Shown here: in pieces, positions 1-2,432 of the stretch | Layout: the number at the start of each line of letters is the position of its first letter | Numbering within the stretch: position 1 is the first letter of the stretch | From: Elainella saxicola E1 | GTDB taxonomy: Bacteria > Cyanobacteriota > Cyanobacteriia > Elainellales > Elainellaceae | DNA: 40,921 nucleotides | Direction of reading: 5' to 3' | NCBI GenBank assembly: GCA_002796835.1 | Contig: LUGL01000069.1 | Span: 1 to 40,921, forward strand | Notes under the pieces: model-generated | Told to the model about the DNA's origin: nothing | What the model saw: only the letters and a program-made list of their open reading frames with translations | Databases searched by the model: none | Made by a program: the position numbers and the translations under genes

Positions 1-560
1 TACATGATATAACCCTGCTAAATTGTTCAAATTCGATGCGGTGTTGGGATGGTCTAGTCCTAATTGCGATCGTCTGATGTCGAGGGCTTGGAGATAGAGT
101 GGTTCTGCTTCACTGTAGCGCCCTTGAGACTCGTACAATGCTGCCAAATTATTTAGACTCAATGCGGTGTTGGGATGCTCTGCTCCTAATTGCAATCGGG
201 TGATGTCGAGGGCTTGCAAATAAAGTGGTTCTGCTTCACTGTAGCGCCCTTGTGCACGATACAACCCTGCCAAATTGTTCAAACTTAATGCGGTGATAGG
301 ATGGTCTGATTCTAATTGCGATCGGGTGATGTTGAGGGCTTGCAAGTAGAGCGGTTCTGCCTCACCGTAGCGCCCTTGTGCACGATACAACCCTGCCAAA
401 TTGTTCAAACTTAATGCGGTGATGGGATAGTCTGGTCCTAATTGCGATCGAGTGATGTCGAGACTTTGCAGGTAGAGTGGTTCTGCTTCACCGTAACGCC
501 CTTGCGAAGAGTACAACAATGCCAAATTGTTCAAACTCGTGGCTGTGGCGAAATGTTTTT
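1..560 (-). repeat. Tandem 126-bp TPR-coding repeats
   Basis: The coding sequence is arranged in units of exactly 126 bp (42 aa). The shared word GCGGTG recurs at 38, 164, 290 and 416, and a more diverged fifth unit ends near 560. Neighbouring units are very similar at the DNA level. They encode 42-residue TPRs with the pattern LNNLA-LY-QGRY-EAEPLY-QAL-I. Such arrays can gain or lose units by recombination. Confidence 0.85.
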
Positions 561-1941
561 CTCCAAAGCGTTTGATCGTCATCTCTCGGCAAGCTTTCAA
601 CCAATGCTCTGCTTCTTGCCAGACACTTTGCCCTTGATAAAACCAGGCAACTCCAATATGTAACGAATCACAATCTTCACCACTGACCAAGTATGTGTAG
701 ACTGTGGCTGCTTCTAGGTGAGGAATCGCAGGTTTAACTCTGGCGATCACATCAAGCGTCACGGTCAGCGGAATGGTTTGGGCCACTTCCGTCATTGCCA
801 CTGCAAACCCCTGTCGCAGTCCATCGGCTTCCGGCTCCAGCTTGGCGGCAAAGAACTGACGCATCAGCGCATGCAGCAAATATTGCTCGCTTCCCACTCG
901 GCTCAACAAACTTAAGCTGACAAGTTGCCGTCTGGCTCGCTCTAATGTTCCAGGCTCCAGCAGCAAACACCATTGCACTGGTTCTACAGCTTTACTAAAC
1001 AACCTCTGCCAGAAATTGCGCGGAAGGAACAATTGCCGACAGTGCTCGACAGCCGCCTCCACCAGCTTCCAGGGAATCGGCACGAGGGCAAACAAGCCTA
1101 ACAGCTTCGCTAACTGCTGTTCTGCCGGGTTCAATTTGGCCCAGCTCAAGTTAAAGGCGGCTTCTACCGGCAGCAATGCCTCATTCTGGACGGTTTCAGC
1201 CTGCAGTCGCTGCTGCATCTCGGCGAACAATAAATCAGGTTCAGCATTCAAGAAGCTGCCCACCACTCGGATTGCTAGGGGCAAGTCGCCCAGCCATTTA
1301 CAGAGTGCTCCAGCCTCAGTTTGTTCGGCTAAAATCCGCCGATCGATCTCTGCCCTCTTGTCTCGGTTGAAATGAATCTGCTCATACAGCAGTTGATAAG
1401 CCGCCAGTGGCGGTAAGGTTTCCAGGGGAAGCTGCTGCACCTCTGGCAAGTTGGCTCTGGTCGTGATCAACAGCCGAAACCGATCGTCAGTTGGCAGAAA
1501 CGGCTGTAGGCATCGGTAAGCCTCCACATCGCCCACATCATCCCAGATGATCAGCCGCACGCCCTGAGGAATCGCCTCTGCCCATTTCTGATAGCACCAC
1601 TGCACCTTGGCCGCCTCATCAAACTGCTCCGGAGGTGGCGGTAGCTCCATCCGCAACGCATATTCCAACACCTTGACCACGAGCTGATCGACAGCAATCC
1701 ACCAGATGCCAGCCGCATAATCAGCCTGATATTGCTCGGCATAATGCCAAGCCAGGTCGGTTTTGCCAATGCCGCCCATGCCTGTTGCTGCGGTGATCGC
1801 CAATCGATCGCCCTGTTGCAGCAGCCGATGCAGATCGATCAAGTCTTGCGATCGACCCACAAAGTTGCGGGAACCCAAACCGGGAGCTAAAAAGTAACGC
1901 TCTTTCCTCTGATCAGTCCCATGCGCATCAGAGGAACCTAC
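1..1941 (-). CDS. NB-ARC ATPase with TPR repeats, -1-frame part of an NLR-like STAND protein (partial, runs off left edge)
   Basis: Read on the minus strand this stretch is open from about 2015 to base 1. It encodes an NB-ARC STAND ATPase followed by TPRs, the architecture of NLR-type sensors that oligomerise after ligand binding. Visible motifs are the Walker A GMGGIGKT (1759-1782), a Walker B-like VRLIIWDD, the sensor segment RLLITTRAN and GDLPLAIRVVG, a version of the plant NB-ARC GLPLAL motif. From about 560 down to 1 there are 42-aa TPR units of the NNLAGLYRAQGRYGEAEPLY type. The frame has no ATG before the Walker A motif and no GTG before the FVGRS segment; the only earlier near-start is a TTG. 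It therefore lacks a convincing start of its own. It lies in the -1 frame relative to the upstream 164-aa ORF, and is probably expressed by frameshifting or is a disrupted gene. The 3' end is outside the window. Confidence 0.85.
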
Positions 1942-1961
1942 TTTTTTACTGCACCTCTGAT
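1904..1961 (-). promoter_or_regulatory. Candidate -1 programmed ribosomal frameshift site (slippery heptamer plus hairpin)
   Basis: On the minus strand, zero-frame codons GTA AAA AAG TAG contain the heptamer A AAA AAG (1947-1941), the E. coli dnaX type. The TAG stop (1940-1938) follows at once. A perfect 10-bp stem comes next: TTCCTCTGAT (1936-1927) pairs with ATCAGAGGAA (1913-1904) around a 13-nt loop, leaving a 4-nt spacer (6 nt if the two outer T-A pairs are open). An SD-like AGAGG (1958-1954) lies 6 nt upstream of the heptamer, close to the dnaX spacing. A -1 slip here fuses the 164-aa module directly to the NB-ARC frame, giving the junction VKKVGSSDAH. All parts are read directly from the sequence; function is inferred. 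The alternative is a simple indel or assembly error in the homopolymer. Confidence 0.65.
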
Positions 1962-2432
1962 CAGCCCCGTGAAAGTAGGGAAATATTTTGCTAAGAAATT
2001 CTCGGTATCCAGTTCAGCCTCATAGGACAAACTCACAAACGGCGGCACTGAGGAAATTACGCCTTTCAATTTGGCCGCAGCAGGCGATCCGGGCTGATTC
2101 AGCTTGTCGCGGATCTCTGTCAGAATTTGCAGCATCTCCGCAGAATAGGCAGGCGTGGGATAGGCTTCAATCTGCGTCACCGCTTCTACGATCTCTCCAA
2201 CTGCCACCTCGGCCTCTGGCTCTGGAATGCTGAGCTGACTGGCCGATCGAGCAACAAGCTGCCAATACTCCTGATCGATCGGCTGCATTTCCTGCTTCAG
2301 TTTTCGGATCCGCTGTTCCAATAACGCTTTATCTTCCAGACGTGCCAGAATTTTGGCTTCTTCAACACCCGCAAGCTGCTCCTGCAACAACTCCAACTGA
2401 TTGGCAAGCTGGTTTAATCTATCGATCGACAT
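1938..2432 (-). CDS. Coiled-coil N-terminal module of the NLR-like gene (zero-frame product)
   Basis: This 164-aa ORF begins with a strongly helical, charged region (about residues 1-65, Leu/Glu/Gln rich, probable coiled coil). An acidic middle follows, then a conserved-looking tail, LSYEAELDTENFLAKYFPTF. From memory of cyanobacterial proteins, this kind of module occurs both alone and at the N-terminus of STAND or other multidomain proteins, which suits a role as adaptor or effector-associated domain. That assignment is inference. The ORF stops at a TAG directly after A AAA AAG. The NB-ARC-TPR frame opens in -1 at exactly this point, so the ORF is either the short product of a frameshift-decoded gene or the 5' half of a gene broken by an indel in the A6 run. 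It starts at ATG 2432, 143 bp downstream of the hslO stop on the same strand. Confidence 0.75.
   Translation of the reverse strand: MSIDRLNQLANQLELLQEQLAGVEEAKILARLEDKALLEQRIRKLKQEMQPIDQEYWQLVARSASQLSIPEPEAEVAVGEIVEAVTQIEAYPTPAYSAEMLQILTEIRDKLNQPGSPAAAKLKGVISSVPPFVSLSYEAELDTENFLAKYFPTFTGLIRGAVKK

Follow-up and report, generated by a model that had tools for sequence, protein, structure and literature searches.

The window analysed here is the whole 40,921-nt stretch of contig LUGL01000069.1 from the cyanobacterium Elainella saxicola E1, and its first base is also the first base of the contig, one of 284 in an 8.7-Mb draft genome. At this end, on the minus strand, a small open reading frame (ORF) meets a long one in the -1 frame, and the joint between them has the following features.

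1941-2432 without the stop (2432-1938 with it), minus strand: small zero-frame ORF of 164 aa encoding domain A, with homologues
1941-1947, minus strand: zero-frame heptamer of the slip site, A AAA AAG, seen in the sequence and at homologous junctions
1938-1940, minus strand: zero-frame stop codon TAG, directly 3' of the heptamer, seen in the sequence
1904-1936, minus strand: perfect 10-bp hairpin with a 13-nt loop, beginning 4 nt 3' of the heptamer (5' arm TTCCTCTGAT, 1936-1927; 3' arm ATCAGAGGAA, 1913-1904)
1954-1958, minus strand: AGAGG, Shine-Dalgarno (SD)-like, 6 nt 5' of the heptamer, its conservation not established
1-1941, minus strand: -1 frame body after the slip, NB-ARC plus TPRs, 647 codons to the contig end

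The 164-aa ORF closes with GCA GTA AAA AAG TAG. An earlier reading of this DNA, made from the sequence only, had described the heptamer, the adjoining TAG and a perfect 10-bp hairpin 4-6 nt further on, and all three are present, the hairpin at 4 nt. Read in the -1 frame, the sequence has no stop between 2013 and the window end, a stretch of 671 aa; since the window stops where the contig does, the TPR array at the C-terminus of the receptor is incomplete. The predicted junction of the fused product reads ..GAVKKVGSSDAHGTDQR. The body matches Pfam NB-ARC with 41.1 bits, above the curated cut-off of 23.5, and TPR families as well, and its P-loop (Walker A) lies at codon 53 after the slip. With a nucleotide-binding domain, a Walker A motif and a repeat sensor, it has the composition of an NLR-like NB-ARC/TPR protein; PADLOC assigns it a general TPR model only. 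The sequence-only reading had also held that the -1 frame runs open through Walker A, NB-ARC and TPRs with neither ATG nor GTG ahead of NB-ARC. The open frame and the lack of an ATG before the NB-ARC match both stand, but a GTG is present at codon 27 after the slip, along with a TTG at 1878. No SD-like sequence was found ahead of this GTG.

The stem score of the window was matched at none of 507 control positions in the same gene (p = 0.002), although the folding z-score of the site, taken by itself, is modest (-1.19). No Rfam family reached its gathering score in the window or at eight further loci. The segment from 1961 to 1904 on the minus strand contains ATCAGAGG twice, one copy lying ahead of the heptamer and the other forming the hairpin's 3' arm. 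Both copies are potential pairing partners of CCTCTGAT, and the rival hairpin would place the heptamer in its loop; inspection by eye of the paralogue on contig C30 of the same genome did not reveal this rival pairing.

That paralogue has the same arrangement as the window, and its small protein is 73% identical. Among AAAAAAGTAR sites in the genome (58 listed, 56 examined), only the window and the C30 paralogue link a zero-frame ORF of at least 80 aa to a -1 frame of at least 80 aa.

The AlphaFold2 model of domain A is all-helical, with eight helices, a pLDDT of 91.2 and a pTM of 0.83. The window copy matched no Pfam or PADLOC family at an E-value of 0.001, and across 23 members no family matched more than two at an E-value of 0.1. 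A fold search of the model against the PDB and viral models likewise returned no match at an E-value of 0.001. The small protein had no match in phage records and two in plasmids. Domain A also occurs at the C-terminus of an SNF2-type helicase in Symplocastrum (L108, 2302-4977, plus strand) and of a protein without a Pfam match in Kastovskya (L110, 2971-4977, plus strand). These two proteins are possible partners of the frameshifted receptors.

A search of 60 relatives for the small protein gave matches in eight besides the source genome, and its alignment was then run against 388 genomes of the class, 42 of which matched (40 of 388 in a repeat with 16 rows). From the resulting class-draw table 44 of 61 rows were taken, leaving out 17 partial or weak ones, and scanning the contigs of named genomes gave 24 loci. 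Removing two loci at contig ends (L102, L119), nine duplicates and a second contig copy (L076) from these 68 records left 56 distinct homologous junctions, with one locus (L074) read in the frame of its C-terminus and the two plasmid loci kept outside the count.

A zero-frame slip heptamer lies within 13 codons of the stop at 47 of the 56 junctions: A_AAA_AAG at 37, A_AAA_AAA at 8 and G_GGA_AAG at 2. In the A_AAA_AAG group the stop follows 0 or 1 codon after the heptamer at 34 of 37 sites and 9-12 codons after it at the other three; over all 47 slip sites the stop is TAG in 29, TAA in 17 and TGA in one. The A run is exactly six long at 32 sites, the window included, seven at 5, eight at 1 and nine at 7, the remaining two sites being G_GGA_AAG. 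The heptamer goes together with a long -1 frame, of at least 150 aa or open to the contig end, which is found at 44 of 47 junctions with a heptamer and 1 of 9 without (both 44, heptamer only 3, long frame only 1, neither 8; Fisher p = 1e-6). By hand tally, 27 genomes from 11 families of the class draw carry the cassette together with a long -1 frame, and the slip site is also present in Microcoleus vaginatus HSN003 and on the Crinalium epipsammum plasmid pCRI9333.05.

Elsewhere in the same genes, 107 Lys-Lys pairs include a single A_AAA_AAG, against 37 of the 56 junctions (a Fisher comparison of 37/37 with 1/107 is circular and was set aside). Substitutions in the heptamer lead to other slip heptamers, G_GGA_AAG and A_AAA_AAA, rather than to free drift. 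By this codon choice, it is evidently the nucleotides, and not just the Lys-Lys pair, that are kept at the joint. The sequence-only reading had named a run of five or seven A as a sign of assembly error; the recurrence of A_AAA_AAG at 37 of 56 junctions means that the six-A run is no assembly slip. It had likewise pointed to homologues in one continuous frame as evidence against it, and among the 56 junctions none has the whole small domain continuous in one frame with such a body. The nearest approach is L208, where a partial match, covering about the first third of domain A, is fused in frame to an NB-ARC body.

The exceptions fall into a few kinds. At three junctions the heptamer is present but the -1 frame is short: L064, L069 (708-710 aa in the close relatives L113 and L123) and L122. 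The sole long -1 frame without a heptamer (L090) has an ATGA overlap, as in an ordinary coupled gene, and in three other loci without a heptamer (L075, L078, L081) the body has its own start codon shortly after the stop. Where domain A is C-terminal (L057/L110 and L108), the Lys-Lys pair is kept but coded GCG AAA AAG, with no heptamer; these count as one case because they are sister sequences. Two further loci are irregular. In the low-coverage metagenome-assembled genome casp40-mb.69 (L055/L106), where error is possible, a nine-A run is followed by a body in the +1 rather than the -1 frame, and in a congener of the source organism (L079, G002:C63) the match to the small ORF is split over two frames, and what remains of a related receptor gene lies behind it.

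Downstream structure was scored by taking the best unbroken helix that had its outer base 2-9 nt past the heptamer, in comparison with other positions of the gene; loops longer than 22 nt were disallowed, which hides a 12-bp stem in L068. Among clusters with A_AAA_AAG or G_GGA_AAG sites, a strong stem is found at p < 0.05 in 16 of 31 and at p < 0.01 in 12 of 31 (Fisher 1.6e-17), while the 15 clusters without a significant stem include two with G_GGA_AAG sites. Only one of eight A_AAA_AAA clusters has a significant stem. Dinucleotide shuffles of 39 A_AAA_AAG and G_GGA_AAG sites gave a mean z of -1.62, with 22 sites below -1.5. In 18 related stems, the spacer is 2-7 nt and the arm sequences differ while pairing is kept; at least two pair types (for example G-C, A-U and C-G) occur at most offsets, a count that is conditional on a stem having been found. 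An SD-like match precedes the heptamer at 12 of 39 sites, a share to be compared with 18.9% for control positions (p = 0.05); such an upstream stimulator, known from dnaX and some insertion sequences, is not required for frameshifting. The AGAGG that the sequence-only reading placed 6 nt upstream is thus present in the window, but as a part of the cassette it is not clearly conserved. Of the elements whose conservation this reading proposed to check in homologues, the heptamer and the stop recur and the stem is significant in about half of the clusters.

The bodies behind the cassette are diverse. By Pfam they include NB-ARC with TPRs, NB-ARC with DUF7779, NACHT, nSTAND1 (one with pentapeptide repeats), nSTAND_NTPase4, AAA_35, VMAP-C, CHASE2, GUN4 and dynamin, and those on plasmids are NACHT (Crinalium) and FGE-sulfatase (Nostoc). 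One body (L089) has no Pfam match, and in another (L065) the only hits are weak models that fall short of their cut-offs. A tree of 55 rows, midpoint-rooted and with weak deep forks, shows the body types mixed; genes without a heptamer adjoin VMAP-C genes (L090, L075, L078, L081) or sit among NACHT and NB-ARC genes (L057, L108). This mixing, and the nesting of heptamer-less genes in heptamer groups, indicate that the domain with its cassette has moved between bodies and has sometimes lost the cassette.

Close-relative pairs, which are not independent of one another, were used to count changes by codon position. The first 60 codons after the slip show 49, 47 and 107 changes at positions 1, 2 and 3 (660 codons), and the sequence further downstream shows 352, 302 and 595. 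Judged by this pattern, the -1 frame is coding immediately after the slip. In 39 of 43 bodies, no SD-like sequence precedes any of the first four ATG or GTG codons; the other four (L067, L070, L087, L088) have an ATG or GTG with such a sequence. SD sequences are not universally used for starts in cyanobacteria, which makes this start-codon argument a soft one. In the Crinalium plasmid record, PGAP-type annotation gives two genes, one for a hypothetical protein and one for a NACHT protein. On plasmid p057_E of Nostoc sp. C057 (L215, 3989-5379, plus strand), domain A ends in a nine-A run with AAG and a stop, the FGE-sulfatase protein follows in the -1 frame, and the record again lists two genes.

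The joint thus combines a zero-frame heptamer of the X_XXY_YYZ form, a coding -1 frame, a downstream structure and a site conserved among homologues. It is very probably a programmed -1 ribosomal frameshift cassette that travels with domain A in front of many STAND and other signalling bodies. In the mechanism proposed here, most ribosomes would stop at the TAG and release a free 164-aa helical domain. The hairpin would hold the ribosome, and a fraction would re-pair at A_AAA_AAG, enter the -1 frame and produce the domain joined to the NB-ARC/TPR receptor. The free domain would then be in excess and the fused receptor scarcer, at a ratio set by the frameshift, and the free domain may act as an adaptor or threshold partner of the fused receptor through contacts between like domains. 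The sequences show the heptamer, stop, stem, -1 coding, conservation and exchange of bodies; from these we infer that both proteins would be made, that the frameshift would set their ratio, and that the adaptor role may belong to a conflict or stress system.

The A run could instead act at the level of transcription, with RNA polymerase slipping on it in a programmed manner and edited transcripts encoding the fusion in one frame. A_n runs with n > 7 are given in PMC3711429 as the range of transcriptional slippage, and seven of the 47 slip sites have nine A. Six of these (L067, L071, L077, L109, L111, L116) have related bodies and no significant stem, the bodies of the tested members (L067, L077, L109) matching nSTAND_NTPase4; the +1 body after the nine A of L055/L106 also favours realignment. 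The window itself, however, has six A, as do 32 of 47 sites in all, below that range, with eight or nine reached in only 8 of 47 relatives, and two sites read G_GGA_AAG. A stem at a fixed distance is moreover the mark of ribosomal rather than transcriptional slippage. As an account of the family, transcriptional realignment is therefore improbable, although the nine-A members may slip in this way. Slightly less probable again are two separate genes, with the body translated from its own GTG or TTG start or coupled after the TAG. The TTG at 1878, the GTG at codon 27, the two-gene annotation of the Crinalium plasmid and the four bodies with an SD-like sequence are compatible with it, but it leaves the kept heptamer, the stem and the immediate -1 coding pattern unexplained, and those relatives that do consist of two genes have no heptamer.

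An assembly error or a decayed gene might be suspected in a draft of 284 contigs with the gene at a contig end. The same layout recurs, however, in the C30 paralogue and in homologues over 11 families, single-contig genomes among them, which makes this explanation of the locus scarcely credible; for the family as a whole, conservation of the arrangement rules out assembly error and pseudogenes. The six-A and G_GGA_AAG sites are best explained by ribosomal -1 frameshifting.

A second candidate recoding signal lies in sister genes. Contigs C144 and C3 of the source genome carry the nearest NB-ARC bodies without the cassette, with 56 and 57% identity, and a congener carries another on C85. In all three genes, a different domain, domain B, is N-terminal and in the same frame as the body, with one TGA between them, and the stretches read contain no ATG from the TGA up to the NB-ARC region. 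The candidate elements are as follows.

L206 (G000:C144), 479-537, plus strand: candidate readthrough element with stop, 8 nt and stem
L216 (G000:C3), 1451-1509, minus strand: candidate readthrough element with stop, 8 nt and stem
L185 (G001:C85), 2342-2400, minus strand: candidate readthrough element with stop, 8 nt and stem

The layout comprises an in-frame TGA or TAG, 8 nt, a 5-bp stem, a loop and AAAG, which we take to resemble the gammaretroviral readthrough signal; no Rfam family matched it. Domain B is present in 58 of 388 genomes. A pattern search placed the element after the stop in 22 of 30 domain B loci fetched, and the same frame continues for at least 150 aa or to the stretch end in 20 of these 22 (all except L220 and L240). 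Over 24 sequences, 96.7% of cells in the 5-bp stem are paired, and three of the five pairs show two-sided changes. The covariation score of the structure that includes a second helix is 0.230, compared with 0.077 in shuffles, none of 500 scoring as high. This second helix, between the loop and a downstream C-run, is only 62.5% paired in a fixed register, and its swap test, run on 39 pattern matches of which three or more are fortuitous, gave 45 of 2000; these two results make a pseudoknot probable but do not prove it. With a covariance model, the element was located at 56 places in 41 of 242 genomes, three of them in the source genome, including one about 50 bases 5' of an NB-ARC match on contig C141. 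Among 30 loci, the pattern search placed the element in 27, with one (L265, TAA) put in the wrong place, and 23 of the 27 combine an upstream ORF of 80 aa with a same-frame downstream ORF of at least 150 aa. These features make it a candidate for stop-codon readthrough where domain B meets an NB-ARC or other body. At one locus (L060, G088:C168, 2-838, plus strand), a domain B-like region and domain A share a single ORF that ends A_AAA_AAG TAA, and an NB-ARC body comes next in the -1 frame.

The closest known signal is that of E. coli dnaX, in which A_AAA_AAG and a downstream stem yield two proteins with a common N-terminus from one mRNA (PMC3711429). The sequence-only reading drew this parallel, and it holds for the heptamer, the downstream stem and, by prediction, the two proteins from one mRNA. 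It does not extend to the length of the frameshift product, short in dnaX (PMC3711429) and predicted to be long here, or to the upstream SD, which is not clearly conserved here, and the genes are unrelated. A short zero-frame ORF followed by a long -1 product is also the arrangement of IS1- and IS3-type transposase genes, but no mobile element is involved here and the bodies are STAND NTPases and signalling proteins. Stimulatory structures generally begin 5-8 nt after the heptamer in the account of PMC4066793, compared with 2-7 nt for the 18 stems described above. The predicted frameshift clusters of GeneTack (PMC3711429) likewise contain bacterial genes with conserved A_AAA_AAG -1 transitions, and reporter-confirmed cases among them include Mg-chelatase, DUF111, DUF772 and spore germination genes. 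NB-ARC, NACHT, TPR and WD40 are absent from the main text of that paper, and its supplement may list an unnamed cluster of this family.

Domain A is also employed in the manner of the effector-associated domains (EADs) of bacterial conflict systems (PMC7159879, PMC8195603), small non-catalytic domains that are N-terminal in STAND and VMAP proteins and beside varied effectors; it too is small and is coupled to a range of STAND, VMAP and effector parts, the SNF2 helicase of L108 included. GUN4 and FGS are both named as cyanobacterial effectors in these papers, and the word frameshift is absent from their main texts. In the Pfam search, domain A matched no described EAD family. No description of recoding in bacterial NLR-like genes was recognised among titles and abstract beginnings of an open-licence literature. 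The type of signal is known; its role as a movable link that connects an adaptor-like domain with interchangeable STAND bodies is, to our knowledge, new.

The breadth of the cassette in front of many unrelated bodies, and the second recoding signal in sister genes, go beyond the sequence-only reading. Recoding could be a general rule for cyanobacterial NLR-like and conflict proteins, with frameshifting (domain A) or readthrough (domain B) at the joint keeping the free N-terminal domain in excess and setting the threshold of an immune switch, a generalization that may equally well hold or fail. If the frameshift reading is true, this one family, with its six-A sites with a stem, nine-A sites without a significant stem and G_GGA_AAG sites, would let the requirements of a frameshift signal be compared in natural variants. 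In that case annotation splits these receptors in two, and their N-terminal part may be missed in studies. Recoding would then be linked to immunity genes, giving a testable route to how such a receptor is kept quiet, and the stoichiometry of bacterial NLR-like receptors would be written into their mRNA.
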